NCBI GenBank assembly: GCA_028753945.1
Contig: JAPNXP010000012.1
Span: 2,728,001 to 2,792,000 of the forward strand
Origin: Hexactinellida sp. DTS-2022
Lineage: Eukaryota > Porifera > Hexactinellida
Direction of reading: 5' to 3'
DNA length: 64,000 nucleotides
The position numbers and the translations under genes are program-made. Below the pieces are notes generated by a model that saw nothing but the letters and a program-made list of their open reading frames with translations, was not told the DNA's origin and did not search any database. Of this stretch, positions 7,831 to 57,189 are shown piece by piece; position 1 is the first letter of the stretch; each line of letters opens with the position of its first letter.

Positions 7831-9213
7831 TTATTACTATTAAACGAGCCTTTCGGTCTCGGTCGCTTTGCGACAGATCGGTGCTACGCACCTCAAGTTA
7901 ACGGCCGCTGTGCGGCCTTACTCCTCACATTTTCTACCATGGAAATGGTAGATAGGGACGTTATGATTTTGATTTTGATTAATTTGTTTACCTATTTGTG
8001 AAAACAACAACAACAACAAAGACTCATATTAGAATTTTATAAATGCGAAATTCGTGTTCAGCACACTTGATTACTTATAATACCTATTGAAAGTTAACTT
8101 CTAGGTTGATTTTGAATTTTCATTAAATTGTTTAGCTATTTTGAGTAAACAACAACAACAACAACAAATATTCATATTAGAAATTTATAAACGCGAAATT
8201 CGTGTTCGGAATACTTGTTTACCTATAATACCCGTTGAAAGCTAACTTCTAGGTTGATTTTGAATTTTCATTAATTTGTTTACCTATTTTGTGTAAATAA
8301 CAACAACAAATAATCATATTATGAATTTGTAAATGCGAAATTCGTGTTCAGCATACTTGTTAACCTATAATACCCGTTGGAAGCAAACTTCTAGGTTGAT
8401 TTTGAATTTCATTAATTTGTTTACCTATTTTGTGTAAACAACAACAACAAATATTAATATGAGAAATTTATAAACGCGAAATTCGTGTTCGGCATACTTG
8501 TTTACCTATAATACCCGTTGAAAGCTAACTTCAAGGTTGATTTTGAATTTTCATTAATTTGTTTACCTATTTTGTGTGAACAACAACAACAAATATTCAT
8601 ATTAGAAAAATATAACCGCGAAAATCGTCTTCAGCATACTTGTTTACCTATAATATCCGTTGGAAGCTAACTTCTTGGTTGATTTTGAATTTTCATTAAT
8701 TAGTTTACCTATTTTGTGTAAACAACAACAACAAATATTAATATGAGAAATTTATAAACGCGAAATTCGTGTTCGGCATACTTGTTTACCTATAATACCC
8801 GTTGAAAGCTAACTTCTAGGTTGATTTTGAATTTTCATTAATTTGTTTACCTATTTTGTTTAAACAACAACAACAAATATTCATATTAGAAAAATATAAC
8901 CGCGAAAATCGTCTTCAGCATACTTGTTTACCTATAATATCCGTTGGAAGCTAACTTCTTGGTTGATTTTGAATTTTCATTAATTTGTTTACCTATTTTG
9001 TGTAAACAACAACAACAAATTAATATTAATATGAGAAATTTATAAACGCGAAATTCGTGTTCAGCATACTTGTTTACCTATTATAAGAATTGTTACCTAT
9101 TATAAAATTTGAAAGTTAGTTTATATCCCAATATTAATTGCGGTTTCTATTCCCCCATCAATTTAATATAATCCGGACAAACACACACACAATCGAGATT
9201 TAATAATATAGAT
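7831..9213 (-). mobile_element. HINE (Helentron-type) with a central tandem array
   Basis: Read on the minus strand, the 5' end at about 9213 is TAATCTATATTATTAAATC followed by GTGTGTGTGTTTGTCCGG, the usual Helentron 5' layout. Next comes an array of about 143-bp repeats (7965-9085). At the 3' side (7850-7920) three compact hairpins lie in a row: GGTCGC/GCGAC, GGTGC/GCACC and GGCCGC/GCGGCC. There is no Rep/helicase gene, so it is non-autonomous. Confidence 0.65.
7965..9085. repeat. tandem array, about eight copies of a 141-146-bp unit
   Basis: Each unit contains CGCGAAATTCGTGTTC, TTGTTTACCTATAATA, CTTCTAGGTTGATTTTG and ends with an (ACA)n run. The marker GAAA(A/T)TCGT recurs near 8049, 8195, 8338, 8478, 8621, 8765, 8906 and 9053. 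Units differ at scattered positions, and alternate units share variants (the GTCTTC type at 8621 and 8906), suggesting higher-order duplication. Confidence 0.85.
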
Positions 9214-18895: not shown

Positions 18896-21166
18896 TTATC
18901 TCCGATTGTTATTCCACATACCATGCCTTGAATGATAAAAGTGATAAAGATTTTTATGCTTTAGACGCTCAATTTCATATCCATGTGACAGAACCCTATC
19001 AACAAGATCCCAATCTTCGCCGCCCCAAGAATCTGAATAATCTTCAGTATTCATTCCAGCAATCGCCATCCAATCAGGCTTAAAAAATGAAAATAGCCCA
19101 TAACCATGAACTTCCCAAAATCCAAGAGGATTTTGTATCGTATGCCCACATTGAAGTCGTGTTAAAGCAGGGGCATAACCTGATCTTCCTTTGAAAGTAT
19201 GCTTACGGATAGTTTCAAATAAATCGATAGGAATATCTAAATGTAGATCGCAAGTGAAAACGATTTCGTTTCTACTTTTAATAATATCTATTGCAGCATT
19301 TTGAGCTTGTACTTTGATAAAACTTCCAGCCATTCTCAAGAGTATCCAATTTTTAAGCTTACTTTGACGAAGTAATACCTCCAAATCAATATCAGTACTA
19401 TCAAAATCAATCAAAATAATTCCAAAATATTCATCTTTGGTATTTTCTTGAATTCTTTCCATATTTTCTACAAATATTCTTATCCATCTACCTTGGTTCT
19501 TAACAGTAATTACGATATGTACGAAAGCTTGATAATTCCATTTGAGACCATTTGGATGGCATAAATCATCAAGGTTGTCATTTTGTCGGTAAAGATACTC
19601 AGAGATACGATAAATATGGGAATTATTAATCTTCACTTTACATTCAATTAAGTAGCGGATACCCTTAGCTGGATCTTCTGATTTTTCAAAGTTTACTAAA
19701 CTTAAAAAGCTTACATCTGGAAGGTGTTCCTTCAATTTTCGTAAAAATATATCCATTATTGTATTTACCTCGACTTCCTCTATAATTGGATTACCATAAC
19801 TTTTGTCATCAACATTCATAACATCTGTGTGATCATTTGGATAAACATTTAAATGTCTTACCTCGTATACACCCATATATCGTTTAATTTCATGAGGTAT
19901 TGCAAAGCTTGGTGAGTAATCACATGGCGAAAACAATCCATTAAAAAGTTTTTCTGGAAAGAACGGAAATTTAAATAATTCAAGACGTTCATCGTTACCT
20001 TGTTCTGTAGTAATCAATTGTTCATTATGCATTGGAAGAGCAAATGTTGGATGGTATGTTTCAGGAACGATTTTATCTTCAGGGTCAATTATGAAGGCGG
20101 CCATATGGCTACCGGATATTACTTCGTATTCAACATTGCCAGGGATCAACCAAGCCACTTGGACATGATCATCACCCGCGCTATTTACATGTAAAATCTC
20201 CAAATAATAAGGTTTCCCTTGAATTAAACGAGTTAAGAGTGATTGCTGGTTTTGGTCTTTAGTATATTCCCCAGTGGATGCCCATAATTTCATCATATTT
20301 TGACCATAAAAACCAAGATATGCTATCTTCTCAGCGTGTCGTGGATCATGATCATAAGATAACCATAATTCGGAGCAGTCATCAGAAGATATTGCGAAAC
20401 GGTAGAGACCAGTTCGAGGGGGGATGACATAACCAAATATACGTTGCCCATAAGCTTGTACACCACGAGAAATGAACAATTTATTTGTATATAATTTAGT
20501 TGGTGGGTTATAGGGAAATCCTGCAAGACCTCTAAGAGCTTCTACATACAGAGAACAGAATTCCCACCAAACATATACATTCATTTTCCCTAGCATTTCT
20601 TGAGTAATTTTAGGGAGACCAAATTCTTCTGTCAATGCAGTATATACAGCTTGAGGGTTGTGAAAGTTTTCCTTGTAATCCGAACTTCTGATGATTTTGA
20701 TTACTTTTTCTCTAATCATCAAAATATTTGGGTCAAATAATTCATCATCTAAAAACTCAGAAGTATAAACGAATTTAGAATAAGATTCTGAATTTAATTT
20801 TGCTAAATCGATATCTTCAGATTCGGTTAGTTTGTGACGTAATTTATTTAAATCGAGGTCTTGAAGTGTGCCATCTAAGAAAATATGTTTTGTGGTATTT
20901 ATGCCCGAAAATAGTGTACGGTTTGATGTTGATTTGTTGTCAAGGTATAATAAGGAATTATGTTCGTTAGAAATATCAACTGGGGTATTCTGATCATTTT
21001 CTTTCAATCGTAAATTAACATCTATTGAAATAGAACCACGAAAATCGGTATCATATTGGGACAATTCGATTTTAGATAGATATCCAGAGAGGTGTAAGAG
21101 TGCAATTATAATAATCAAACTAAAACAGATTGAAGGGCAGTGTTTTCGAATATTAAATTTTCTCAT
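18896..21166 (-). CDS. beta-1,4-N-acetylgalactosaminyltransferase, PA14-containing (B4GALNT3/4 type)
   Basis: A 756-residue single-exon frame. Residues 1-12 are basic and about 13-31 are a hydrophobic signal anchor, so it is a type II Golgi protein. Residues about 200-345 form a PA14 domain (YTNKLF, FGYVIPPRTGLYRFAISSDD, ELWLS). The C-terminal half is a CHGN/GT7-type glycosyltransferase: a CDLH metal-binding motif at about 639-642, FWEVHGYGLF, and GGEDWDLVDRVL from about 714, followed by YHFYHSRHGMW. Together this is the layout of the animal B4GALNT3/4 enzymes, which add GalNAc in beta-1,4 linkage to GlcNAc on glycans. It is somewhat shorter than the vertebrate enzymes in the stem region. A splice acceptor four bases before the ATG implies a 5'UTR intron although the coding sequence is uninterrupted. 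ATTAAA about 80 nt past the stop (18811-18816 on the plus strand as TTTAAT) is a possible poly(A) signal. The frame is open throughout, the best evidence for a functional host gene here. Confidence 0.92.
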   Translation of the reverse strand: MRKFNIRKHCPSICFSLIIIIALLHLSGYLSKIELSQYDTDFRGSISIDVNLRLKENDQNTPVDISNEHNSLLYLDNKSTSNRTLFSGINTTKHIFLDGTLQDLDLNKLRHKLTESEDIDLAKLNSESYSKFVYTSEFLDDELFDPNILMIREKVIKIIRSSDYKENFHNPQAVYTALTEEFGLPKITQEMLGKMNVYVWWEFCSLYVEALRGLAGFPYNPPTKLYTNKLFISRGVQAYGQRIFGYVIPPRTGLYRFAISSDDCSELWLSYDHDPRHAEKIAYLGFYGQNMMKLWASTGEYTKDQNQQSLLTRLIQGKPYYLEILHVNSAGDDHVQVAWLIPGNVEYEVISGSHMAAFIIDPEDKIVPETYHPTFALPMHNEQLITTEQGNDERLELFKFPFFPEKLFNGLFSPCDYSPSFAIPHEIKRYMGVYEVRHLNVYPNDHTDVMNVDDKSYGNPIIEEVEVNTIMDIFLRKLKEHLPDVSFLSLVNFEKSEDPAKGIRYLIECKVKINNSHIYRISEYLYRQNDNLDDLCHPNGLKWNYQAFVHIVITVKNQGRWIRIFVENMERIQENTKDEYFGIILIDFDSTDIDLEVLLRQSKLKNWILLRMAGSFIKVQAQNAAIDIIKSRNEIVFTCDLHLDIPIDLFETIRKHTFKGRSGYAPALTRLQCGHTIQNPLGFWEVHGYGLFSFFKPDWMAIAGMNTEDYSDSWGGEDWDLVDRVLSHGYEIERLKHKNLYHFYHSRHGMWNNNRR

Positions 21167-21169
21167 AAT

Positions 21170-21189
21170 CTGTAAGGAAAAAGATCGAT
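21170..21189 (-). other. likely 3' splice acceptor in the 5'UTR of the GalNAc-transferase gene
   Basis: On the minus strand the sequence before the start is a pyrimidine-rich run ending CTTTTTCCTTACAG, then ATT and the ATG. This is a good acceptor consensus, so transcription probably starts upstream in a separate non-coding exon. Confidence 0.5.
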
Positions 21190-21389
21190 GAGTGTATGAA
21201 TAAGAATGCTAATAATAATAAACAAAATAAATTAAAATAATATATGTAATAAATTTTAGTTGTAACCATTAACAAAATCAGAAACTATTACAAGCATTAT
21301 TACCCAACGATTGCAGTTTTATTAGAGCTGTACCGGATTAGAGATTCTCTACTCAGGCCGGATCCGGATATCCGGTGCTCAATTATTCG

Positions 21390-22121: not shown

Positions 22122-25114
22122 CATAGCCTACTATATATACAGCTGTGCAACTTACCGAATACAATGCCAAAATAGAAGGCCAGTTTCTATTTTTAATGAT
22201 ATTCTTACTTATGTTAAATTACTCACTTCGATGTTTATAATAGCAATATATATTACCACCTGAAATAACGAATTTACATTAATCGTGGTGAATTTTTTCA
22301 ATAATCCGCTGTCGGGTCTTGAATTGTTTCAATTCATCATCCTTTCTTTTAGCGTTTATTTGTTTTTTTCGCGTGGTTTCAGAGAGACACCTTGCTAGAT
22401 TGGAGAAGTAAACGTTAGAGAAAGTAGTATTAATCATCGAGCGAAATATACTTGAGTGTGCAGAGCAAATAAAATGAGCATCCCAATTCTGCGAGATTTC
22501 ATTGAGCAACCTGTGACCCAAGATTTTCCATGGAACTTTAAAACTTCGAATTTGAGATTCATAAGTGTCCAATATAGCGAAAGCAGTGTAAGTTTAATGG
22601 TTGAGAGCAGATGGTGGCAATGTCAGGCCATGGTTTAGTGATTGTACATAGTTATTGGTCACAGGATCCTGCTTCAGCTTTCCGACACATTCAGTACAAC
22701 TTACTTTTTTTAGCAAAGAATAGGAAATATATCCTGCAACATAAGTGATAACTTATGCGGTATCGTTCGATAATAACATATGGTCATGGTCTTCAAAGCG
22801 AGCATCTGATATGAATTTTGAGACCTGTTCGTCGTCCAATACCTCAGAGTAGGTTAGTTCTTCTACTCTCAATTCAGTCTTAAGAATAGTTTTTAAGGAA
22901 ATTATCGACTCGGAGCGCATAACTTCAGTTAAACTAACCAGAAATCGACCACCGCTCATCTGTCTGTAATGAGAAAATCTCCTCTCAAGAGGATCGGTTT
23001 GCAATCTGCCTGTTAGTATATACTGATATCCAGCTGATAGTAGGTCAGAGCATAAGTCAGCAATGGCACGATTAGTGAATGTAAAAGCTTTGAAAGTTTG
23101 CTTGGTAAGTCCGATGAATTGACTGGAATTCCAAGTTTCAATCCAATCACTAATTGCTCGAAGAAAATCTATTTTATCATTCGATACGAGAGCGTTTCCT
23201 ATTCGCGTTGGGTGGAAGCGTTCCTTAGCATTAACTAATAACCACCAGGCATGGATAAGTTCGAGGAAGGCGATAGTGGTGTACTCTTCGGATAGATAAC
23301 TACGAATCGCAGAAGTGGTAGTTGGTTCAAATACTGCGAGAGCAAGTGGCACTGATTGCTTATTGTTTCCAGGATGGAGAACAGAATAAGATAACTTTTT
23401 CGCTTTCTTTAGATGAGCATTCAAGGTTAAATCATTGTTGTGTACTTGGTGAAGATGAGACCAAATAACGAAGCCTGGAGGAATGTGAAAAACTGTATCT
23501 TGTAGATTAAAGATAAATTGTGGAACCTGGAAAAATCGGGAAGATATAAGATTATTTCGAATATTCTTAACTAAGTGTACTGTATCGAACATCAAGAAAA
23601 TATGCTGAGCAGAATTAGAAGGATTCTTGATGCAATATTCTCTATTATCAAGAGGGAAATTCTTTACTAAAACTCTATATGCTTTCACGTTAGTTGAATG
23701 GTGGTCTGCAATTACTCCTCGAATGTGAAATTTTCCATCGTTTAGGATTGAAATACAGTTCAAGATTCCATTGTAAACATCAAGGAAAGTAAGTTTAACA
23801 ATAGGTATTGCTTTTATAACATAAGGAATAGTTTTTCTTCAACGAAACGACCATGAAGCACAATATACTCTTGAACATGTTTAGATCACCGTCACAACCG
23901 ATTACACTTTTTCCATCGAATTGGACTTGAGTCTGGAGGTACATCTCATCTAGTAGGATAACAACGTAATTTCCAATTAGTAATTTATTTCTAAGTGTAC
24001 AGAGAGCTTTACTGCTATCGATTGTGTGTGAGTTAAGCATTTGGAGTAAACGTTCACTAGGCAAAGGTATAAATTTGTTGAGAAGTTTGTAAGCAGCATT
24101 AGAAGTATACCGGAGCAGTAAAGAAAATCTTAAAACAACTGAAGGATAGTTACGCCAAGGGGATGATAAAAACGCAACTTTATCAACTCTTTGATTACTT
24201 CGATATGGTAGTTGTGTGACGCATTTCTACAGTAGTTTTGGAGGTTAGTGAGCATGTCTAAGGAAGTCAATTTGCATCCAGCTGCTGTGGAAATGTAGTC
24301 AGGAAGGGGAATAGGAGATGATTCAAAACTGAGTATAACGTGCAAATCATTTGTTACATGTACACACACTTGAATCACAGCTATTCCTGAGTCTATCTAA
24401 ACTCGATGTGCAGTAACTCCAAATTCTGAAACATCAATATGGAAGTTCCGGTATTCATCTGCTACTTTCATATAGGAGACAACACTTTCCTTGGTAATTA
24501 CTGTATGTTTATCCATAAAGAGAGACAGCTCATCTTTTTGAAAAACACGTGGTTTGGGAGACTTTCGCACTCTGATGGGAATAACTGATTGGCTTTTAGA
24601 AATAGACGAAGGATGTATAGTTGGAATAGTGTTGAGGGAATAATTAAGTCGAACACTTTCTTTACCAAGAGAAAGGTAAGTACTTTCGAAGTGATAGATA
24701 CAAATCCTTGAGCTCTCAGTTATAACGAAATCCTTACGGTTAACAAACTCAACCCACTTCGTACGTAGGGTATCTTTTTCTGGGAATTGAAATAAGGCTC
24801 TTCGAGGTGCTGAGGAGTATCCAGTCTTGCAACCAACAACTGCACATTTAAACCCATTATGCAGGCGGTTGATTAGTTTAGCTAATAACATACAAAATTA
24901 AGAGAGGGTAAGATTAATTAACAAAAGTTTGAGGATGAGATTGTACCAGCATGTGTTGGCGAGTAAAAGAAACATTTGTTCAACTGCAATGATCAGTAAT
25001 AGTAGTAGTCAATAATATAAAAATAATTGATGTGGTTTTGTATAAATAAATTAACTGGCATTCTATTTTGGCCTTGTATTCGGTAGGTTGCATAGCTGTA
25101 TATTGTAGGCTATG
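22122..25114 (-). mobile_element. P2: P-element-like transposon, 2,993 bp
   Basis: About 58 bp of inverted end (CATAGCCTAC(T/A)ATATA… with TACCGAATACAA inside), and the exact 7-bp TSD GGTGATC (22115-22121, 25115-25121). A P/THAP9-type gene fills the interior on the minus strand. It is the most compact and complete P-like copy in the window, inserted in element B. Confidence 0.92.
22279..24891 (-). CDS. P2 transposase (THAP/P-element family), split over several frames
   Basis: In order on the minus strand: a THAP zinc finger (C..GC...YSS, LFQFPEK, W..FVNR, C.YHFES; 24891-24397), a middle block (24378-24130), the first catalytic Asp region LLDEMYLQTQVQFDG (about 23955-23910), the nucleotide-binding and RNase H-like region with FDTVHLVKNIRNN, LTKQTFKAF and TDPLERRFSHYRQMSGG (23763-22753), and a C-terminal block with a basic tail (22572-22279). 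The pieces lie in different frames, joined either by short introns or by frameshifts. A 55-bp intron in P4 shows the family can be spliced. Each piece is long and well conserved, so this copy could be functional if the joints are introns. It belongs to a different subfamily from P1, P3, P4 and P5. Confidence 0.85.
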
Positions 25115-26220: not shown

Positions 26221-26615
26221 GATTGACCATAGCCTACATGAACATAAGGCCTTTTCAGTACTTTGAACCAGGGATAAGAGAAAGTTGATTTTTTAACTGT
26301 AGACTGCCTACTGATACACGTTGTAACAGGTGGAAAACAGATTGATCTAATCATTCAAATTTAGTGAAAATTCGGATTTAGACATGGTTTTGTATTTTCA
26401 ATCGATTCAAATCAAAATTTTCAAAATTTGTTATGATGAAGTAGCATAAAAGCGTACTCCTCCACTTGACTGCCACTTGCTTTCATATATTCGAAATGTT
26501 AAAATTTCACCGTGGAAATACCCGCAAGAAGGTATTTGACTAAATAACAACTATTTAGGTTATTTGGTTTGACTAATATTGAGTTGTGATAGATATACCT
26601 CAAATAGGGGCGCAT

Positions 26616-26865
26616 GCATTTGTCCGAATTTCTTACTAATTTCTTTAAGTTCTGCATTTGTCCGAATGAATTTTTGTAAGTTCTGCATATGTCCGAATGG
26701 ACTTTTGCAAGTTCTGCATTTGTCCGAATGGACTTTTGTAAGTTCTGCATTTGTCCGAATGGACTTTTGTAAGTTCTGCATTTGTCCGAATGGACTTTTG
26801 TAAGTTCTGCATTTGTCCGAATGGATTTTTGTAAGTTCTGCATTTGTCCGAATTGAATTTTTTTA
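26616..26865 (+). repeat. left tandem-repeat arm of MULE-B (about 8 x 31 bp)
   Basis: Unit: TTTGTCCGAATGGACTTTTG then TAAGTTCTGCA, repeated with small changes; the outermost units are more divergent. Reverse complement of the array at 28620-28835. Overlapping open frames here are artefacts of the repeat. Confidence 0.9.
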
Positions 26866-26970
26866 ATTTTGGCAATTTATATATTTTTCTAATCTTATTA
26901 GCTATGTTTTAATGTTTAATGCTGATTTTTCATGACAGTAATAAATATACGTATGTAGATTGAATAAGAA

Positions 26971-28432
26971 TTAATTAATATAGATCTGTAACCTTTGATC
27001 TATGTTACTGCGACATATAGGGCAGGACTGTCCCAGATCTACTAGTTGTTGGCTGCAATCAATACAAAATGTTGCATGCCTGCAGGGCATCAAAAGCCAT
27101 GTTGATATCCGTGGACCAAGGCATACGGTGCAATTACCCATGTTGATAACATCCTCTTCCAGTTCATCTTCATTATCTTCTGAGTCACTCAGAGCAATTT
27201 TCTTAAATCTCTTGCAACCAATTTTGTTGCTCATGGCCTGTAAAAATTGCCATGGTGTATACTCTCCATTCCTAAATCTTTCTTTGAATGTAATCCTCTC
27301 CTCATCGATATGGACATAAATAGGCTTCCTTGCACGACTAATCTCCCTTCCTTGCCGTATTCTACCAATGTCATTGTCTGTATCTATAATGATATCGTTT
27401 AGTTGTGACAAAAATGACCATATTCTAGGATGAGAAGTCCGAATTCTAGCTTTGAGTTTGGAGTGGTAGCTTTCGGCTCCATTATTAGTAGAGATGCTTA
27501 ATTCAAAGATAGAAAGTTCTTCTGGAGATATGTGAGTGAGCCAGTATTTTTTGATATATTTCTTCAGCTTTCCCACCATTAATGCTTCACTTCCATCTAA
27601 ACTTGGCGTTACAATCAAATTGAATGTGGGAGAGATCAGAGAGGCAGGTAAAAATGGAAGAGCCATCAACAGACGGGTGAACTTGGGAATTTCTGGGTTA
27701 CTTTTGAAACCGTGTGTTAGACCAAGTTTTTTAACTTTTGCCCAAATGCATTGGGTATAGTGGAAAAGACACCCTAGATGCGAATTTGTGGAAAGACATC
27801 TTTAAATGTATTTCTAGAAGCTCGCGCCCAATCTGACATTGAAGTTACTGGTTTTAAGCCAGGTATGTATGAGATGAGACTTACTAAAACTGCCCTATAG
27901 ATATTGTGTCTTCGCTGTCATTAAGCAATGTATTGCAGGAATAGTGTGCATTCCAACAGCTACGAATATAGTCCATAACTGATAGAACTGAATCGGAACC
28001 GTATCAAAAGTTCCATCAAATTGTATGTTGATGGCTTCAGCAATTGTTTCCCTTATTTAATTGGAAAAGAAGACCACGGCAGTTTGGTTTTCACTCGTGA
28101 CAGAATATTGAAAATGTATTCCAAGAGGCGTAGTCCCTAACATCTCTAGAAATTCAGTAGCTGTTTGCACCTGCTTAGCAACCGTCTTGCATTTGGTTTT
28201 CAACTGGTGGACCTCGGTTTTGTCCTCAGATACTTCGTGGTTGTGTAGATGCATAGGTGTTATCAAATTTCTTGTACGATTCAATTTGCTTGTGCCTTTA
28301 CAGCCACTCCTAAAGATGGCACATTTCAGGTAAACATAACTTTCCGTGATCTTAGATTGGAAATATTTAAAACCATCGGTAGTAGTAAAACGTTGCTACA
28401 CAACGTTTGTATTCTGCTGTTGTGAACTCCAT
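26971..28432 (-). pseudogene. MULE-B transposase: FLYWCH zinc finger, MULE catalytic domain and C-terminal RING finger
   Basis: The minus-strand order is: ATG near 28432; a FLYWCH finger (DGFKYF, YLKCAIFRSGCKGTSK, MHLHNHE) at about 28390-28205; the MULE core with QFDGTFDTVPIQFYQLWT (about 28025-27970), a DWARA segment, GCLFHYTQCIWAKVKKLGL (about 27780-27725) and NNGAESYHSKLKARI (about 27490-27440). After an acidic linker, a RING finger follows (C..C, CRHATFC..C, CPICR) at about 27140-27000. The last 232 residues (27669-26971) are one open frame, so the RING is truly fused to the transposase C-terminus. Upstream parts need at least two frame changes and cross a stop, so the copy looks inactive. 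The RING implies ubiquitin-ligase activity by family knowledge; its role in transposition is unknown. Confidence 0.8.
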
Positions 28433-28619
28433 GATAAATAAATGTTGAAAATAGATGTGTTGTTATCTTTGGAATTGACTATTTATGCATTTATGATTCA
28501 ACTAGTGTTTCACCCACAAAATCAACAATATGGTTGTTCGATAACACTATTTGTTTTTATTTCAGCCATTGTTAATTATTGGAACAACACTTTTGATCAA
28601 TGAATATTCAATAATGGTC

Positions 28620-28835
28620 AATTCGGACAAATGCAGAACTTACAAAAATCCATTCGGACAAATGCAGAACTTACAAAAATCCATTCGGACAAATGCAGAA
28701 CTACAAAATTCCATTCGGACAAATGCAGAAATTACAAAAATCCATTCGGACAAATGCAGAACTTACAAAAATCCATTCGGACAAACGACAACTGGAAAAT
28801 TCGGACAAACGACAAATCAATAATTCGGACAAGCA
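28620..28835 (-). repeat. right tandem-repeat arm of MULE-B
   Basis: About eight copies of ATTCGGACAAATGCAGAAC followed by TTACAAAAATCC, the inverse of the left arm. The last two outer units are shortened (GGACAAACGAC). Confidence 0.9.
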
Positions 28836-29369
28836 GCTTCCCCCCTCAAATATATGTATTTTTCATAATCCATGGTTCATGAAATACAGATTTATTATTT
28901 TTTTGAAAATGACGTAACTTTCGTTTACTGATGCAGAATTGTTCAAATTTTGAGATCTGATAACTAATAATATAGTCGTATTTGTTCTTGTTTAGAAACA
29001 AAAGATTACTTACATGTTAACGGCGTTTTATCGATTTATAGAGAAAGTATGTGTCATCACTTTTTGTCAAAATCGTCGAGTAATTTTTTTAAAAAATTGT
29101 GCAATATTCATATATTATTGTGCTCTTGTTGGATTTCAAATTAATAGGTTCTACATATTATATACAAAGAACTACAGGGTAAGATATTTCCCTGAAAATC
29201 ACACCGGCAGTCTACGGTTAAGGTGGTTATTCTAACATTACACAGCTGATGTATGTAAACGTCAAAAGTTAATAATTACTGAGTATTTTTATGCATATAT
29301 TAGAGACATTAGCCTCTTTAATAAAGCATAAGACAATAAAAAAGTTATAAACAATACAAAATTAAATAA

Positions 29370-37160: not shown

Positions 37161-40035
37161 TTAAGAGCTAAATTTTTTCAATTTACGTTTTTCAATTCCT
37201 CTGCATGCAACCATAGAATTGTAATTTTTGACTTTATTTGCTATCATGCAATTTCCTGAAACGAACAGCAGCCTGTGCAGTATTGAAAATCTAACAACAT
37301 CACAAGAAGGACAATTAATTCTCCAAATATCACAATCATGGTCATCCACTATAGAATTCAAAGCAAGCTCCACGAGAATTTTCCTCGCTGGCCCTTCTAC
37401 TAATGCACCCATCAACTCGCTATTATTTTGGATTATAGAAAATATCTTCCAGAGCGTAACAACTGATTCCAATACTATTTCTGTTGGATATTTTAGGTGT
37501 CCTCGATCAGAGATTTCCAAGAGCTTATACTGAGATACGAATGCTTCATCAATCAGTAAATCTTTATCGATAGTTAACATATCCAGACTTAAGGTACATG
37601 GTACAATTTTTTTCAAATATTGGTGTGTGGAGTATCCTGCAATAAAAGCTAAAGATGTTGGTATATCGCAATCAATAATCGATAGATCTGATATTTCATT
37701 TAAGAAAATGTCAAGGTTGATCTCACTGCCCGATGAGGCGCTATCCTTAGAGGAAAAAGACTGAATAAATTCTTGTACTGAATAATTACTAGAATCAGAC
37801 TGGCTTGAAAATAGTTTTAAGATGCTAGAAACCTTCAGACGACGTTCGCTTTCTATTATCTGAAGATAAGAAACATGGTAATTGGCACCTGACATAATAC
37901 GGTATAGTCCAAATGGTGCTCTAAAGGATCTGTCTGCAAGAAAGACGTTAAGAGGTAAGAATAGCCACAGTTGCCTGTTAGATGATTAGTTATTTGAGGT
38001 AGCACAAGACAGGCATGTCTAAAGCTGGTGAAAGTTTGTTTGCTTAACTTCCCATCTTTCTCAGGTAGCGATTGCCAAGCTTCTAACCAAAAGATCATCT
38101 TAGTCAATAATGAAAAGCGCTCGTCATTGAAAGAAAATGGTCGAGATAGTGGGTCATTTAAACGAACATGTTTAAAAGTGAGATTTACATTAAAAAAATT
38201 CCATAATGAGAGTAGAATTTCAACGAATTCTGAAGTGTTACTTCTATATGACGCACAACGTTGCTCGTTTTGAATAGTTAACGCAGCAATGGTAGATTCA
38301 TGAATAACCTTTAAAACTAACTTCACATTCTGACGTTCCAAACTAGAAGGATAACATGATTTCAATGTCAAGCGTGGAGCTAGTTTGGCCAAGCTTTCCT
38401 TCTCAGAATTATAGAGAGTACGGATATCTTGAAAAGAAGCTGAACACAATCTTAGAGGGAAAGAACAAGAATCAGATCGAATATCTTCGAAATTAGGAAA
38501 GATGAAACTTTTAGCGTCAGATTTCAGGTTCAACCAATTGTTACGAATAGATTTTAATATTTGTACGAAATCAAATGTAAGAAAAAGGACTCTACTATTA
38601 TCACAAGGATGGGGTACCTTAATTTCCAGATCACCAATAGGAGAGAACAACTTAAAGAGTTTCACGTTAAGTGGGTAGTTGTCCGTTGAAATGATCTCAA
38701 CTAATAAGCCACAAGCCTCAAAATCTCGAATACAAGATTTGACAATGGCAAATATCTTCTCTGCAGATAAAGATGCACATGGCAATAAACGAACAATGCA
38801 GGACCATTTTTTCTGAAGACTAGAGACCATGATAGCAAATACAGTTTTCGTAGGATCATCAGGACATATATTGGGACCAATAATTTTGCCTCCCTTGTAT
38901 GATATATCGGGTTTTACGTGAATTTCATCCATTTGGAGAATAACATGCTTTTGTTCAATAGAAAAAGAATGCGTTGTTGCCTAAGGAATGGAAAGAATTC
39001 GTTTTCGAGCCCAAAGGAAGAATACAGTTTTTCCAAAGTATTGAAGTGAGGAAGGGATAGACAAGACATATGCTGGAGATACTTATAACAAGCAGGAGAT
39101 ATAAGATGGGTTTTGAGAGAGAGAATTTGAGTGAGTATGTTGTATCTACGTAGAATTTTGGGAACAAGACTATTTTCTAGCTGGCATTGAATGAATTGAA
39201 GTCGATTAAGTTCTGGAGACTCGGATGTTTCTAAATCCGAAGTGGTATGCATAATATCGATGGCTTGTTGGATGTGAGCTTTCGCTGAAGATACACGGGA
39301 CGCAGTAGTTGAGTCAGATTTCTTAGATGATTGACAGTGATGAGGCGAAAAGTACAGTTCATTCAGAACAGACTCAAGATGTCGAATATCACTGAGGCAA
39401 CTTAACGAAAGTGGAAATGTCTCATTTTCACAAAATGCCTTTATGGAAAGATCGAATTTTACTAACAGATAAACATCAACGAGGATACGAGAATTCTCCA
39501 AATTAGGACGCATAAAAATTAAGCTATGTTCATCTGGGTACCATAATGACCAAGTTTTAGGTATAGAAATAAATGATAACTTATCTTGGAGATCCTGAAA
39601 ACTTGTAATCTTGAACTTGTCATTCTCTTCTGTATCAGTTTTCAAGCGAAGTGTCAAAGCTTGATTGAGTAATTCATCTTCTTTAGAGTCGAGAGACAGG
39701 CGAATCCGCTTTGTTGCAGATTGAGAATAGTAAGAGGGACATCCTGTTAGAAAAACTGGTACAGCACCATCTTTCAGCTTGGGATTAACTCTTGGAATTT
39801 CCCTAAAAGTACCGTCTCCATTGGGAACCCTGTGTGTGTACTCGATATCTTCATCCCGAAAATGCTTCACGCAAACGTATACAGCCTTTAGTTGATCTAT
39901 ATCATCTCTGCGGAGTACAGCCCGAGCCCGAGCGGGTCTGATTTGGTCTGGTTTCTGGGGCATCTTGAAAAGAGTAATCCTTTCTTCAGATTTATAGTTG
40001 CTTTTGCAACCAGGTGCCGAACAACTAGTTGGCAT
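37161..40035 (-). pseudogene. P5 transposase (THAP/P-element family) with two frameshifts
   Basis: The start is the ATG at 40035, giving MPTSCSAPGCKSNY, the normal THAP start. The in-frame Met at 40077 adds 14 residues encoded by the inserted Tigger element. The THAP finger (C..GC, FKMPQ, C.KHF), a linker, and SPACYKYLQHMSCLSLPH lead to the core QMDEIHVKPDISYKGG (about 38940-38890, first catalytic Asp). Then come STDNYPLNVKLFK, FDFVQILKSIRNNW, SLERQNVKLVLKV, GKLSKQTFTSFRHA, TDPLEHH…, MSGANYHVSY and a C-terminal domain with GYSTHQYLK, LEISDRGHLKYPTE and Cys pairs. About 950 residues in all. Frame breaks occur only near 38975 and near 37905, and each is explained by a single-base change (the second in a T run). 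All family blocks are otherwise present. Confidence 0.88.
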
Positions 40036-40051
40036 CTGCTGGTGTTTAATA

Positions 40052-40598
40052 CAGTGTACTCCGCTTAATTGGGACACCGGTTAATCGGGACAGCCGCTTA
40101 ATTGGGACAACGCCCCAAGAACAGAATCCTTTCATTGGAAGCAATTACTAAATTTTCGGTTATTCGGGACAAACTCCGCTTAATCGGGGCAAACTAAACA
40201 AATTTGGTCGAAAATTCGTGCTCACTTAATTGAAAATTCATATTGATTAGAACAAATTATAATTATATTTGTCAATACTGATGAAGGCAATACAAAATAT
40301 CTTAATATTGTCAATTTCTTATTGATTTCAGTAATATCGAAATTTACCAGAGATTATGACTTTGTGGTTCAGGGATATATCAAACGGTCCAGAGAATATT
40401 ACGGCTCATTCTATGGGTTTGAGAAGAATCAAGGGTCCGCAGGCATTGGAGGATTTGTTGTGACAGGTTTAAAACCAAAATTTGTGTAAATAACAGGTAA
40501 ATCAATACTTTACCAAATTTTTTCGGTTAATAGGGATCTCCGCATAATTGGGACAAGAGGCCTGGAACAAACGTGTCCCAATTAAGCGGAGTAGACTG
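40052..40598. mobile_element. Tigger/pogo-type element upstream of the P5 start codon, 547 bp
   Basis: CAGTGTACTCCGCTTAATTG and the inverse (…CAATTAAGCGGAGTAGACTG) are flanked by TA (40050-40051, 40599-40600). Further GGGACA and TAATCGGG(A/G)C repeats lie inside both ends. No transposase frame. It is 17 bp from the P5 ATG, so it separates the coding region from the original P5 promoter. Confidence 0.88.
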
Positions 40599-44354: not shown

Positions 44355-46430
44355 CGTTATCGGAAAATTCGTCGCCAGGAAATTGGTCGCCGGAAAATTG
44401 GTCGCTTGGAAAATTGGTCGCCGGAAAATTGGTCGCATGGAAAATTGGTCGCATGGAAAATTAGTCGCGTGTTCAATGGGTGCAAGGTTGTTTATTTATT
44501 TCTCTTCGATAATATGGTTTCTTCAATTGAGTGCTAAAACCGAAATTCTAATTATGCATTTATCATTTAATTCTATTATCTAATATGGATTCGTCACTTT
44601 CAATGTAAACACCCTCAGTTACTTTTATTAAAACATCTCTAACTGGCTATGTATACTACATACGTGTATTTCTATCTATATTGAATTAAATCTATAAACC
44701 TCATCAATATCGTCAAATAATGGCTACTCCATTTACCATTCAAAGTATCAAGAGTGAAAGACAGAAGGATAAAGCAACTGTTGAAGGCTTTATTTACACA
44801 CTCAACAGAATGCCGATTGATGTCGAGTACTGGGTATGCGAAAAGCGCGGCGTTTGCAATTCAAGAATACATACGAGAAGCAACAATATAATAAAATCCA
44901 CAACTTCATCAGAATTGATTTATGGACATTCTCATGGATCCGATCCAGCTAAGTTAGAAATGTTAAAAGCATATAACATCCTAAAGATTAATGCTTCTGA
45001 TTCGGAAATGAGTACCAGGAGTCTTCTATGTATTGTAGTTCAAAGTTTGCCAGCACAAAGCATAAATAAATTTACCAAAATTTGATTCTGTGAAGAAAAC
45101 AATTAGAAAATACAAAAAAAGATACAAGGTAATGATTTTGGGAATCCTACCTCTTGTGCAGAAATTGTTATACCACATCGATTTACATTAACTTCCAAAG
45201 GTGAAACATTTTTGTTCTTCGATTCTGGCAATGGTGATTTTAACAGACTGCTTCTTGTTGGAACTCCAAAATTTATTACATTACTCAAAGAAAGTGATAG
45301 TTGGTATTATGATTTAACTTTTAACGTCGCCCCAGAACACTTCTTTCAACTATATACCATTCATGCACAGAGAAATGGTTACTTATTCCTATGTATTTAT
45401 GCATTACTTAATAGTAAAGCAAAACACTTACGATAGAATGTTTTCAAAATCGAACCAGCATTAAACCCCACATCAATTATGGTTTACTTCGAAAAGGCCT
45501 CAATAAACTCCATAGAATCTCACTTCACCGATTCCACATCAGGATGCTTTTTTCACTTATCGCAGAACACATACAGAAAAAACCAGACTGAAGGACTAGC
45601 TTCAGAGTATAGTCAAGACATGGAGTATGGGATTAAACTCAAAATGCTGCCGAGTCTGGCATTTGTGCCAGAAACTGATGTACGTAGTTGATAGTTTCAA
45701 TATCTTAATGACAGAATCCCCCAATCAGCATGCAATATGGCGAAGTATTTTGAAGACTACTATATTGGCAAAAAGATCCTGACAATACTCGACGGATACC
45801 TCCATTTCCTATCAAATTATGGAACATGTACACAAGAATACTTAATAGCATGCCTCGTTCTAATAACTGTGTTGAAGGATGGCACAACACCTTCAAATCA
45901 GGGATAAGCCATGCGCACCCAAGCTTTCCTAAGCTTTTATTGCACTTACTGAGGGAACAATCCCTTCAAGAAGCGATTTATGCTAAGTGGGAAGGTGGGT
46001 CCATTAAGCAACGATCTAAACAGTCCATCGAACAGGAAAAAAGACTACAAAATGTCGTTGGAGACTATCAAAAACGTTATATATTGGTTTATCTTCGTGG
46101 CATTGCCTATAATTTTAACTTGTGATGATACAATATTTTTCTGACTTGTGCTTCCCTAGCTCTCTCATTATTCATATTTATTATAAAGAAACTATTATTG
46201 AACTCATTTTATAAATAAAAGAAATATATACTACATTAGAAAGAGCTACTGGTTAATGGATAAACTCTTAATTGAGGCAATTTAACCATGACCGGAATCC
46301 TTTATTTGGATGTGTTTCCGTTAAAGTGACTCAAGAGTCAACTATATATTAAAAGAATTGTCCCTGCGACTAATTTTCTGGCGACCAATTTTCCGCGAAG
46401 AATTTTCCGACGACGAATTTTCCGCCATTC
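44355..46430 (+). mobile_element. MULE-C: Mutator-like element with 15-bp tandem-repeat ends
   Basis: The ends CGTTATCGGAAAATTCG and inverse GAATGGCGGAAAATTCG are followed by tandem GGAAAATTGGTCGC(C/T) units: about seven on the left (44363-44470) and four on the right. The TSD is ATTGCAATC (44346-44354) against ATTGTAATC (46431-46439), one mismatch in nine. It holds a degraded MULE transposase on the plus strand and is inserted in hAT-C. Confidence 0.85.
44720..46125 (+). pseudogene. MULE-C transposase (FLYWCH-type finger plus MULE domain)
   Basis: The first frame (44720-45085) has a FLYWCH-like finger: YWVCEKRGVC, then HSHG. The catalytic part follows in other frames: YDLTFNVAPEHFFQLYTIHA (about 45305-45365; the usual DGTF is DLTF here), YFEKASINSIES (about 45485), GCFFHLSQNTYRK (about 45541-45580), LAFVPETDVRS with a stop right after, and SNNCVEGWHNTFKSGI..AHPSF (about 45850-45930). 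The C-terminus ends at 46125 without a RING. Four frames must be joined, with stops at 45085, 45434 and 45689. It is a moderately decayed copy of the same broad family as MULE-B and MULE-D. Confidence 0.8.
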
Positions 46431-48529: not shown

Positions 48530-50265
48530 GGAATACCGACATAACGTTACACGACATAACGTTACAGACAGAATGTCACTTGGACAAAATGTTGCACGAC
48601 AAAATGTTACATAGACAAAATGTTACACGACAGAATGGTACTTATTTGATTGGCTAGTTTTTAGACTTCATAATAATTAAATGGTTACTTTAATATAACG
48701 GTATAACATTAATTATAATAAATACTTCAAATGGACACATACAAATAAATAATTGAGTGATGATTTAATATATCACATCTTGACTCCTTAAGCAGTTCCA
48801 AAACTAAAATGGTGCGCTACTCCGCTTAAGAACTCCAATCCAGGACATCAACGTTTTTAATGCTTGTTCGTTGGCTTGGCAACTCCTTCTCTTGGACTGC
48901 TGAGCTCCTGCGACGAACTTGGCATGTCGTCCTTGGATTAGTCCCTGGTCCCGCTTCAGGGCTGTGATGAATTTCCACATGTTCGGATGATGACGGTTGA
49001 ATTAAAGGAGCGATGCCATGCCTCCAAGGCATTAGTGGTTCGAGGTAGTCCGAATGGTGTCATAATGTGATAATTCCACAGGCCGATAGGAAATAGAGCC
49101 TCCTGGTAAATTCCGCTTGGGAGCAGGCGTCCGATGTAGGTGTCCTCGAAGTATGCCAGCAGACCGGCTGCTTGTGGCATCGGCAGCTGCCCAGCTACCT
49201 CATTGAAGAGATGTCGTACATGGGATGGTGGAGCGAATGCGAGAGCTGGTAGCAGTCGGATGCTTCTAGCAAGATCTCCATGCAGATGGTACTCAGCTTG
49301 CATCCCCTTAGCCTGCACCTTGCGCCATACATTTTGCGATAGGTGGAAGAAACAACACTTTAGCAGTGTATCGGGCCAGAAGTGTGCAAAACTGTTGAGT
49401 GACGCTCTTTCAAAGTCCATTATCATCTCGATGGGATGAGCAGCAGGACAAAGGAGCTGGATTTGCTGCCACATCCTTGTGTAGGTTACCTCTGTTTTAT
49501 TAGGTAGGAGCACAAAAAGACTAGGTAACAAGTGGCCATCCTTCATGGGATCAGGCCCACCACGCAATGCATGTACCACATGCGCCTGCGTGAATAGGGT
49601 GGATGCTGTCTTAAATGTTCCATCAGCCAACCAGACCTGGGATAACTGCAAAATCTCCAGATTTTGCTGTGTCCCGAAAATAAGGATTCGCATACCTCTT
49701 GGCCAGAGTAGTACAAGAGGAACTGTTCGCCTTTTGCTGTTTTCTTGTACTCTGGTGGGAGTGTGAGCTGTTCCAAGGTAGCAGGCTGTGCAGGAGCTGC
49801 CAATGCCTGCACGCATTGCCTCTGAAAGGTGCGCTTCAAGCTGTCTAGCTTGGGCAGCTTAAATTCGTGCAAAATGAAAAGGTGTAGAATTTAATTCTCT
49901 ATCGAATGCATATAAATTAAATATTCGCGCACTATTTATTATTCCTGTTTAGATATTAAACAGGTGCAAAAAAATGTTATAAAAATTGTGACCCCAGGTG
50001 CACATCTGTAACCCATGAGACACCTGTCCTGAAAATTTTAGTTCTTATTTAATTATGTTCTGTTCTGTGGAGACGATACGGACTAATAATATACCAAAGC
50101 TTTAAGACCAATACTGGGCCACTATACTATAGTATAGTCGGCACAGTAAAAAACTAGCCAATCAAATAAGTACCATTCTGTCGTGTAACATTTTGTCTAT
50201 TTAACATTTTGTCGTGTAACATTTTGTCCGTAACGTTATGTCGTGTAACGTTATATCGGTATTCC
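48530..50265 (-). mobile_element. MULE-D: Mutator-like element, GC-richer, with exact 9-bp TSD
   Basis: GGAATACCGACATAACG and its inverse are bounded by GATTACCCC (48521-48529, 50266-50274), identical on both sides. The subterminal regions are tandem variants of ACATAACGTTAC and GACAAAATGTTAC. At 1,736 bp it is short for an autonomous MULE. The coding part is near 50% GC, against roughly one third in its surroundings. Confidence 0.9.
48812..49872 (-). pseudogene. MULE-D transposase lacking its N-terminal finger, with frameshifts
   Basis: It starts LPKLDSLKRTFQRQC and LTLPPEYKKTAKGEQFLLYYSG (49872-49700), then shifts frame to MRILIFGTQQNLEILQLSQVWLADGTF (catalytic DGTF at about 49630), TQAHVVHAL, MIMDFERASLNSF (second Asp, about 49430-49395), CCFFHLSQNVWRKVQAKGM (about 49360-49305), LPALAFAPPSHV and TTNALEAWHRSFNS (about 49050-49010, with the conserved Glu). 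After one more shift it ends HPNMWKFITALKRDQGL… at about 48812. The DDE-type residues are all readable; two single shifts (about 49700 and 49000) break it. No FLYWCH finger is seen before 49872. Confidence 0.85.
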
Positions 50266-53930: not shown

Positions 53931-54739
53931 CTTAAGGAGTCCCAACGTTGGGTCTAACTCAATGATTTGAATTATTTTTTAAGAATATTATGCCAGATCA
54001 CTTTTGAAATGGCTACCAGATCATTCAGTTCAATCATTTTTGCCTGCTTCCACTCAATCAACTCATTCAAAACATTATTGAACCTTCATCAGATCATTCA
54101 ATTCAATTTGGATTGAAGATAATAATTAATTTCAAATCAATTAAAATCTTGTCAGATATTGGGGTATTTCAACACTTTCAGGGCAGTTGTTCTTATCCAA
54201 ACTATATAAGTGTCTATTATCCGGATTCCAGGGGCCTTATTCACTAAACTTCTTAAACTTAGTTTGTGCTTAAACTAAGCATAAACTTAGTTTATGCTTA
54301 GTTCAAACTAAGTTTAAGCACAAACTAAGCACAAACTAAGTCTGAAACTAAGTCGGTATTCACAAAGCAAAACTAAGCTCAAACTAAGTCTAAACTTAGT
54401 TTGAACTTAGTTTGTGCTTAGTTTTGAGATCAAACTAAGTTTTTGCTTAGTTTTCCTCTGAAAATTTAGCAAAAGTTAAGTCTAGTTGCTAGTACACTTA
54501 ACTCCATATTCAAACAATTATTTGATCACTGTTCTGCAAGTCTTTGATAAACAATGTAAAGAGGGAAATCATTGTATAACAAATGTCAAAATGGCATTAA
54601 ATGAAAGCAAGTTAATGTCACCACCGCCCCTGAGCCAGTCATAGTTATCTTTTAAAAAGATATAAAATATCGGTAACTTTGCTGGATTACAACTTCCGTT
54701 ACAACTTCATCAATCATTATAATAATACTACGAACATCA

Positions 54740-55489
54740 ATGTCGAATAAAACTCGTTCAAAGAACTTTTCATCTGATGAGATTTCGATGCTAGTAGACT
54801 TAGTTAATGATAACAAGTCCCAACTCTTTGGTTCATTAAGTTCATCTTTGACCTATGAAGAGAAAAATAATGTCTGGAAAGAAATAGCTGAAGCTCTATC
54901 ACAGGTGCATGGAAGTTTGAGGAGTAAAGAAGATGTCGCCAAGAAGTGGTCAAATGTTTTGGCAAAGCACAAGCCACTTATAAGTGACAAAATTGCTTCA
55001 GCTCGCAAAACTGGTGGGGGCTCTCCTGAAGCCGAACTTACAGAACTCGAAGCCAAGCTGAAGAGTATTAAAGGAAAGGAACTATTTGTTGGAGTTCTAG
55101 GAGGAATCGACCTATGTGCCTCGCCAATCAGTCCGCTGGCGCTGAGTGATTCAGATATGTCAATTTCTGAAGAGATGAAGCCACCTAGGAAGCGGAAACT
55201 TTCTTACGATAGGAGTGATTCAATTGACCAAACAATGAAGAAGTGTCTTTTAGAAAATGAAAGGGTGAAAATAGCTCTATTAAGAAGCATCGACCAAAAG
55301 ATGGATTGTATGGTAGATCTCTTGGGACAGATAGCTAGTGCACAAAATAAATTGCTAGCCAATGCAACACCTCAAATGCACCAGCATTTTGGATCAAATC
55401 CTACTACGTTCCTCCCACCACTTCCTCCTCAAGTCTACCCTTCTAATTATTTGGCACAACATTTTCCCTGCAGCAGCAATGATATATAA
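54740..55489 (+). CDS. Harbinger Myb/SANT-like DNA-binding protein (NAIF1-like)
   Basis: A 249-residue open frame. Residues about 6-80 form a trihelix Myb/SANT-like domain (FSSDEISMLVDLVNDNKSQL, WKEIAEALSQVHGS, KKWSNVLAKHK) with the spaced Trp residues of the family. A basic patch PPRKRKL at about 148-154 is a likely nuclear signal. Residues about 165-215 look helical and could mediate dimer or transposase contact, and the tail is Pro-rich. In Harbinger systems such a protein brings the transposase to the ends and into the nucleus; here that is inferred from family and neighbourhood. It converges on the transposase gene, 104 bp separating the stops. The frame has no breaks. Confidence 0.9.
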   Translation: MSNKTRSKNFSSDEISMLVDLVNDNKSQLFGSLSSSLTYEEKNNVWKEIAEALSQVHGSLRSKEDVAKKWSNVLAKHKPLISDKIASARKTGGGSPEAELTELEAKLKSIKGKELFVGVLGGIDLCASPISPLALSDSDMSISEEMKPPRKRKLSYDRSDSIDQTMKKCLLENERVKIALLRSIDQKMDCMVDLLGQIASAQNKLLANATPQMHQHFGSNPTTFLPPLPPQVYPSNYLAQHFPCSSNDI

Positions 55490-55593
55490 CACGTAGCTAA
55501 TTCATTTAAACTATTATGTATGCTAGTTAATTAACATTAAATAGAATAATAGACAGTTCTAAAATGTATGAACTAATATACTTGGAAATAGTC

Positions 55594-56682
55594 TTAATCA
55601 AAGTAATCTGCAACCACAGACTGTCGCACTATGTTTCCGGAAAGCGTTGTTTCATCTGAAGGAACACTAATACCATCTTCTTGCATAATAACATCTACTT
55701 CCCCTTGTAAGCCATGATCAATGCATATATTATGCAATACCATAGTTGCTACTGCTAATCTACATACACGTTCTGGAGAATAACACAGTGTTCCTCCTGT
55801 TTTGTCCATTGATCTCCATCTACTCTTCCATAATCCAAAAGCGCACTCAATAGTTTTTCGTGTATTCAAAAAGGATCGATTGTATCGTTTCTGGCCCGGA
55901 GTTACTGGAGAAAGTATCGGCGTGAGAAGATTCGGTCTAAGAGGATATCCGCTATCTCCTAGAAACCAACCATCTACCGTTGGTATTTCTCCATGTAAAA
56001 TTTTTCTATTGATCCCAGACTGCTTCCAAATGAATGCATCGTGAGTACTTCCTGGCCACTTGGCGACTACGTCAATGAATTTCAATTTACTATCACATAT
56101 TGCCTGAATATTGATAGAGTGAAAGTTCTTCCTATTTACAAAAATATCTTCATTCTCTTGAGGTGCCAATATGGGTACATGCGTACCATCGATACAACCT
56201 AAAACTTTGGGGAAGCAATATCTTTCAGAAAACACTTGTTGATTAATCAATTGCTCAGATTCGCTTGGGAATACTATGAATTCTTTAGCATAAGAGCATA
56301 ATGCATCCGAAACTGTGTGAATACATCTGGAAACTGATGGTTGAGAAATTCCATGTGATGAAGCAACCACAGTTTGGAAAGAACCAGTGGCCAAAAACTG
56401 TAACGAGACAGCTAATTGAGTGGCGGCAGGAATAGCATGGGATCGAACTGTTGACCGATGCAGGAACGTAAAAACTTTCTCTTCGAGTTGAATGAAAATA
56501 TCCCTTGTAACTCTGTATCGTGAAATAAAGTCGATTTTATCATACATATCTAAAGGATTTAACCTATCTCGAAATACTCTCTGGCGTGATAAACTCCGAG
56601 AAGAATCGAGATCAAGTAGAAAAAGAGCAGCTGCCATTTTAAGATAATATATAGATGAAGTAAAAATGTTTGTAGATAGCAA
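55594..56682 (-). CDS. Harbinger DDE transposase (HARBI1 type)
   Basis: A 362-residue open frame. An N-terminal helix-turn-helix-like region (about residues 70-135, with LAVSLQFLATGSFQTVVASS and SQPSVSRCIH) is followed by the DDE_Tnp_4 nuclease: GCIDGTHVPI (first Asp at about residue 166), GDSGYPL (second Asp at about 243), and RKTIECAFGLWKSRW (Glu at about 280). AVATMVLHNIC is the usual C-terminal block. Length matches the family. The frame is unbroken and all three catalytic residues are present. The protein should cut and join the 54232 and 57015 ends with the partner encoded on the other strand. Confidence 0.93.
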   Translation of the reverse strand: MLSTNIFTSSIYYLKMAAALFLLDLDSSRSLSRQRVFRDRLNPLDMYDKIDFISRYRVTRDIFIQLEEKVFTFLHRSTVRSHAIPAATQLAVSLQFLATGSFQTVVASSHGISQPSVSRCIHTVSDALCSYAKEFIVFPSESEQLINQQVFSERYCFPKVLGCIDGTHVPILAPQENEDIFVNRKNFHSINIQAICDSKLKFIDVVAKWPGSTHDAFIWKQSGINRKILHGEIPTVDGWFLGDSGYPLRPNLLTPILSPVTPGQKRYNRSFLNTRKTIECAFGLWKSRWRSMDKTGGTLCYSPERVCRLAVATMVLHNICIDHGLQGEVDVIMQEDGISVPSDETTLSGNIVRQSVVADYFD

Positions 56683-57189
56683 AGGAAAATTGTATTTATA
56701 CGTATAACTTATCGTGGTGTATCACTAATAGTGGTTGTATCACTCTGAGTTTTGTTTTGAGAAGTTAAGAAAAATTCGCAAAAAGTATGGCATTAGTTTG
56801 TTTAGACTAAGTTTAAGTTTAAGTTTAACCAAAACTAAGTCAATACTTAGTTTAGACTAAGTTTAAGTTTAAGTTTAAGCAAAAACTAAGTTTTTGGATA
56901 AGTTTTGAGAAGTTAAATAAACTTAGCATAAACTAAGTCGAGACTTAGTTTAGACTTAGTTTAAACTAAGTTTAAGTTTAAGTTTAAGTTTAAGAAATGT
57001 TAGTGAATAAGGCCCCAGGTATTTCCGGGCAGCTGTGGGTAAAATCTTTGAAGTCTCTGGACCTCCATTACTTTTCTGGGGACCTGGGCCGTGGGCGGGT
57101 TACGACGCCTGTGACTGTAATAATCAGTATAAGGATTATGGCGAGGTTAGCATCTATAATTATTATACGAGGTTAGCATCTTTAAATAT

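Follow-up and report, generated by a model that had tools for sequence, protein, structure and literature searches.

The window (the whole stretch of 64,000 nucleotides, 35% GC) contains a broken copy of a MULE transposon on its minus strand, in which the C-terminal part of the transposase, an acidic linker and a RING finger share one open frame. The features of this locus are listed below.

26607-28843, minus strand: whole MULE copy, broken, 2237 bp
26598-26606: target-site duplication CCTCAAATA, copy 1, a perfect 9-bp direct repeat abutting the GGGG/CCCC ends
28844-28852: target-site duplication CCTCAAATA, copy 2, a perfect 9-bp direct repeat
26646-26861, minus strand: 3' terminal array, 31-bp unit, 7.0 copies
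28621-28785, minus strand: 5' terminal array, 31-bp unit, 5.4 copies, inverted relative to the 3' array
26971-27801, minus strand: open frame of 276 codons plus stop (transposase C-terminal part, acidic linker and RING)
27472-27474, minus strand: codon of the Glu in NNGAESYH, the same Glu being kept in 11 of 11 aligned relatives
27136-27192, minus strand: acidic linker LSDSEDNEDELEEDVINMG, residues 204-222 of the frame, the part under weakest constraint
26995-27135, minus strand: C3HC4 RING (zf-C3HC4_3), ligands from first to last at 27132-27013
26974-27012, minus strand: C-terminal tail, carrying the linchpin Arg and, at +10, an aromatic residue that is Tyr in this copy
27895-28056, minus strand: upstream transposase piece containing IQFDGTF
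28057-28395, minus strand: FLYWCH-like N-terminal zinc-finger piece (E 0.0053, below the Pfam cut-off)
28430-28432, minus strand: ATG corresponding to the start of the relatives (MEF/MEY...), out of frame here

An earlier note on this DNA had described a single frame (27669-26971) leading from the NNGAESYHSKL block through an acidic linker to a complete C3HC4 RING. That frame is confirmed and extends a little further than claimed: it is open from stop to stop over the 276 codons of 27801-26971, with NNGAESYHSKL at residues 106-116. We take the Glu of NNGAESYH to be the third catalytic residue of the transposase and the Asp of IQFDGTF to be the first catalytic Asp. The RING (residues 223-269) matches Pfam zf-C3HC4_3 with an E value of 1.3e-11 and 44.6 bits (cut-off 27) and has all eight C3HC4 zinc ligands; a six-frame pattern scan finds no second RING pattern elsewhere in the window.

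The copy in the window is dead. Four internal stops interrupt 28395-26971 when it is read in one frame, the ATG at 28432 lies in a different frame from 28395, and approximately 43 residues of the relative L011 are absent, so the 276-codon frame is what remains of the 3' portion of a longer gene. The window copy does not appear among the 150 places listed for the MULE domain PF10551 (from 961 candidates), and its three pieces also give no match, because its middle is broken.

Both ends of the element are nevertheless recognizable. Its outermost bases, at 26607 and 28843, are GGGG...CCCC, and just inside them the two 31-bp-unit arrays are inverted to each other, with 85-nt arms that are 99% complementary. 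These terminal inverted repeats, together with a 9-bp duplication that falls in the 8-11 bp range of MULE target sites, are what is expected of this superfamily. An 8- or 9-bp repeat at ends of the GGGG/CCCC type was found in 11 of the 23 stretches examined, the window's included (a count made without a shuffled control, over stretches some of which may not hold both ends). The frame for transposase and RING stops 0.36 kb inside the 3' end. The RING is thus not derived from a neighbouring host exon, a source that the earlier note had named as fatal to its proposal, because the frame ends within the MULE's own target-site-duplicated ends.

How common is the RING in this genome? Searching the genome from which the window comes (112.4 Mb in 18 contigs) at the protein level returns at least 142 matches, from 100% down to 36% identity, when the best 140 of 1555 first-look candidates are scored and with a few loci counted twice. 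Among the 142 listed matches, 107 reach or pass the last Cys of the RING, 16 stop inside it and 19 stop before it, which disposes of the other refuting case named in the earlier note, that a single copy might carry the domain. Matches at only 36-38% identity still extend to residue 274, and several of them exceed Pfam's cut-off for the RING. With the RING as query there are at least 150 matches, each with an E value of 6e-17 or better (best 150 of 609 first-look candidates scored). Relatives are absent from viral_contigs and genome_contigs, two collections that by design hold no animal genomes.

The intact relative L029 shows the full order of the protein: a FLYWCH-like finger (E 9e-4, below the Pfam cut-off), the MULE domain PF10551 (E 7.9e-12), the acidic linker and the RING (E 2.4e-10). 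The label FLYWCH-MULE in the earlier note thus holds for its second half, while the FLYWCH half is weak in both L029 and the window copy. The RING is part of the transposase and marks one of the MULE lineages in this genome, as had been proposed. Two other MULEs in the window (presumably those that the earlier note called MULE-C and MULE-D and described as lacking the domain) contain no RING pattern in a six-frame scan and belong to other lineages, with 23-29% protein identity to the RING MULE. At the loci of the best PF10551 matches (L001-L008), which by eye are of a different sequence type, the strand of the match carries no RING pattern over 3.3 kb. Of the 150 PF10551 places listed, at least 28 have a RING place no more than 1.3 kb downstream, a lower bound because this census was judged with a subset of RING places (34 of the 142 protein matches, plus 24 of 150 and 4 of 150 RING matches).

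The other two window MULEs, at 44361-46425 and 48537-50258, both have flanking arrays of 15-16 bp units, which have a period of 31 when doubled and are inverted by eye. Their architecture is that of the RING MULE, despite the low protein identity, and repeated terminal units may be a common trait.

Not every long frame keeps its RING intact. Transposase frames of 480 aa or more occur at 11 of the 30 best loci (the top scorers with a RING-containing query, near-duplicates included), and seven of the 11, measuring 528-559 aa from the first Met, have a complete RING. In the other four the RING is lost or damaged: it is replaced in L016, the frame is lost within it in L017, one ligand is missing in L026 and L038 is cut short. 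L016 (G000:C18:1563856-1567503) is near-identical to L012 and has a 510-aa frame with a short lysine-rich repeat tail instead of the RING. This damage is the strongest observation against the RING being required. It may mean that the RING is dispensable, or it may reflect decay after insertion, since choosing long frames favours copies that are damaged only at their end.

We now consider what kind of RING this is. A profile search of solved structures places MGRN1, CGRRF1 (listed as cell growth regulator with RING finger domain protein 1) and cIAP2 on top, followed by RNF165/ARK2C, BIRC7, XIAP and others, with Mdm2 lower; a search with the single sequence gives MGRN1, CGRRF1, cIAP2 and BIRC7 as its top matches. 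RINGs of monomeric type also score (RNF165/ARK2C, Arkadia and RNF38), and RNF165/ARK2C ranks between cIAP2 and BIRC7. Since a single-sequence AlphaFold2 prediction of the RING segment alone reaches a mean pLDDT of only 43, the assignment of the fold rests on sequence.

All eight ligands are present at 21 of the 30 best loci, which supply 16 distinct sequences of RING plus tail. At each of these 21 loci there is a Val or Ile two residues past the first Cys, a position that faces the E2 in known RINGs, and an Arg, the putative linchpin, directly after the last Cys. A Phe or Tyr stands at +10 from this Arg in all 20 complete-ligand loci with a full tail, at most two residues from the end of the protein. 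The same Arg and the same aromatic spacing are found in cIAP1, where, according to passages of PMC6349121, Arg606 is the linchpin and Phe616 crosses the dimer to contact the donor ubiquitin in trans, both being required for ubiquitin transfer; the F616H mutant is defective and loss of C-terminal residues abrogates activity. These passages also describe IAP RINGs as dimerising partly through a helix that precedes the RING, and in the MULE protein an acidic, poorly conserved linker occupies that place. Conservation of this kind would be expected for a functional dimeric E3, not for a simple zinc knuckle.

The similarity to IAP proteins concerns the RING and its tail. No BIR domain is matched in the window pieces or in L029, and no RING pattern, sought as a possible source of the domain, occurs within the fetched stretches of the genome's seven BIR loci, which lie on contigs C5 and C9 (the window is on C4). 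Five of the BIR-domain matches fall within 11 kb at G000:C5:4489675-4500492, perhaps a cluster of IAP-like genes.

If the RING matters to the element, its coding sequence should be constrained, and the earlier note had asked for this check among copies. We aligned 17 sequences, all chosen for a complete RING, dropped L024 and L027 as near-duplicates, and fitted a codon model to the remaining 15 on one tree (several branches of which are weakly supported, 22-68%) over a grid of omega and kappa. Omega is 0.10 over the 182 codons of the C-terminal transposase part (2 delta lnL against omega 1 of 808), 0.22 over the 28 codons of the linker (31) and 0.13 over the 53 codons of the RING with its tail (218). 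Without the eight ligands the RING still gives 0.17 (45 codons; 154), and this run is the fairer one because the sequences were picked for a complete RING, which makes ligand invariance true by construction. Pairwise values for four diverged pairs agree with the codon model, at 0.07-0.27 for the RING, 0.40-0.70 for the linker and 0.11-0.16 for the transposase, with dS high in some pairs and the window copy in two. Very close pairs differ by too few changes for an omega; between the window copy (L009) and L010 the RING shows three nonsynonymous and no synonymous changes, which looks like drift, as would be seen in copies that decay. Purifying selection acts on the RING almost as strongly as on the transposase part. 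Selection has maintained the domain, and this suggests a use for it in the element.

The window holds one dead member of a large MULE lineage, in which an IAP/MDM2-like RING ends a single-frame transposase. With moderate confidence we propose that this RING would act as a dimeric E3, chiefly on the transposase itself. Many transposases would collect on the repeated terminal units, and this assembly would bring their RINGs together and help the RING to dimerise. The dimer would then bind E2~ubiquitin and pass the ubiquitin on, with the transposase as its main acceptor, in cis or in trans. Such auto-ubiquitylation would control the dose of transposase, or remove the transposome from the element's ends once these have been cut. 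We regard the transposase as the likeliest substrate, since it is never out of the RING's reach and RAG1 provides a precedent, its RING being an E3 and RAG1 itself being auto-ubiquitylated (PMC4411706, in portions of the text and in the reference list).

The main rival to self-targeting is an active E3 aimed at nearby host proteins (of chromatin silencing, the piRNA pathway or repair), by which the element would escape silencing or have its gap repaired; we think this possible, though unlikely. The conserved catalytic residues fit it equally and the abundance of the lineage in the genome speaks for it, while against it, the Pfam domains of L029 include no substrate-recruiting domain beyond the transposase. 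A bolder version is that an active dimeric E3 has for long been a permanent component of this lineage's transposase and is directed at host factors of silencing or repair at the element's ends, where the repeated terminal sites would cluster transposases so that the RING dimer would be switched on only at element DNA. We consider this version doubtful; if host targeting were true, a transposon would direct the turnover of host proteins at its cut sites. We also tried the linker as a SUMO-interacting motif of STUbL-like type: the motif would fit the window copy (IALSDSED) and L012 (IVLSDSED), but other lineages differ at these positions, and it is no feature of the family.

It is improbable, in our judgement, that the RING is merely a zinc-bound module for dimerisation or for binding DNA or protein, without ligase activity. 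RINGs that lack E3 activity exist, and they count in favour of such a module; a linchpin Arg would be superfluous for pure dimerisation, and the invariance of both this Arg and the tail aromatic in complete-ligand copies argues against it. The module would have company among MULE transposases, where several kinds of zinc finger occur (passages of PMC6446971). Finally, MULEs are prone to capturing host fragments (same paper) and four of the 11 long frames have a lost or damaged RING, but it is hardly credible that a host gene fragment was picked up recently and does nothing for the element, and host-exon or chance read-through is ruled out, given the RING-spanning relatives down to 36% identity, the terminal repeats and target-site duplication that enclose the RING, and its omega of 0.13.

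Proteins that combine a RING with a transposase are already known, so it is important to say what differs here. Within the accessible parts of Dupeyron et al. (2019; PMC6446971), one element of the aphid MULE Ghost has a separate 420-bp RING ORF, the Phytophthora MULE 37_Pi has a C3HC4 RING, MULE zinc fingers include those of FLYWCH or SWIM type, and the aphid MULE Phantom has a minisatellite after its transposase ORF. Common to Ghost, Phantom, the Phytophthora group and the present lineage are a MULE transposase and extra zinc domains; here, by comparison, the RING is C-terminal in one transposase frame, present in many copies, under selection and followed by a cIAP1-like tail. Rehavkus is similar in being a MULE relative with a minisatellite before its 3' end and a 9-bp duplication, and differs in that its transposase has a PHD finger where the present one has a C-terminal RING (same source, in part); the window pieces and L029 give no match to a PHD finger. 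RAG1 and Chapaev, of the Transib superfamily, likewise have a RING fused to a transposase, as described in portions of PMC4411706, but there the catalytic superfamily is another one and the RING follows the Chapa domain, whereas the present RING is C-terminal and IAP/MDM2-like and the core found by Pfam in L029 is MULE, not Transib-type. With the IAP E3s cIAP1, cIAP2 and BIRC7 and with MDM2 (PMC6349121, in part) it shares the C-terminal position, the linchpin Arg and a tail aromatic spaced as in cIAP1; it differs in that a transposase, with no BIR match, precedes the RING.

In the open-licence papers that we searched we met no account of this lineage; among them, we met mentions of a RING in MULEs only in PMC6446971, as far as its accessible parts go, and the available main text of a 2026 survey of arthropod MULEs (PMC13359780) has no word starting with 'RING'. 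To RAG1/Chapaev and two mentions in MULEs, the present case adds a selected C-terminal RING in an abundant MULE lineage. If this RING is as competent as it appears, fusion of an E3 to a transposase would have arisen more than once. The role of the RING in transposition is, to our knowledge, unclear even for RAG1, the best-known RING-transposase, and the RING MULE would give a second system for studying the part that ubiquitin plays in cut-and-paste transposition.

The window holds other probable mobile elements as well. A DDE_Tnp_4 transposase frame and a Myb/SANT-like frame on the opposite strand lie at 54677-56721, an arrangement that we take to be a Harbinger-type element. Frames with THAP domains lie at 24397-24897 and 37856-40080, one of them adjoining a TNP-like RNase H frame, and are presumably P-element-like transposons. 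A 770-aa frame at 18896-21208 with PA14 and chondroitin N-acetylgalactosaminyltransferase domains is probably a host gene, and a tandem array of a 142-bp unit (7.8 copies) occupies 7964-9085.
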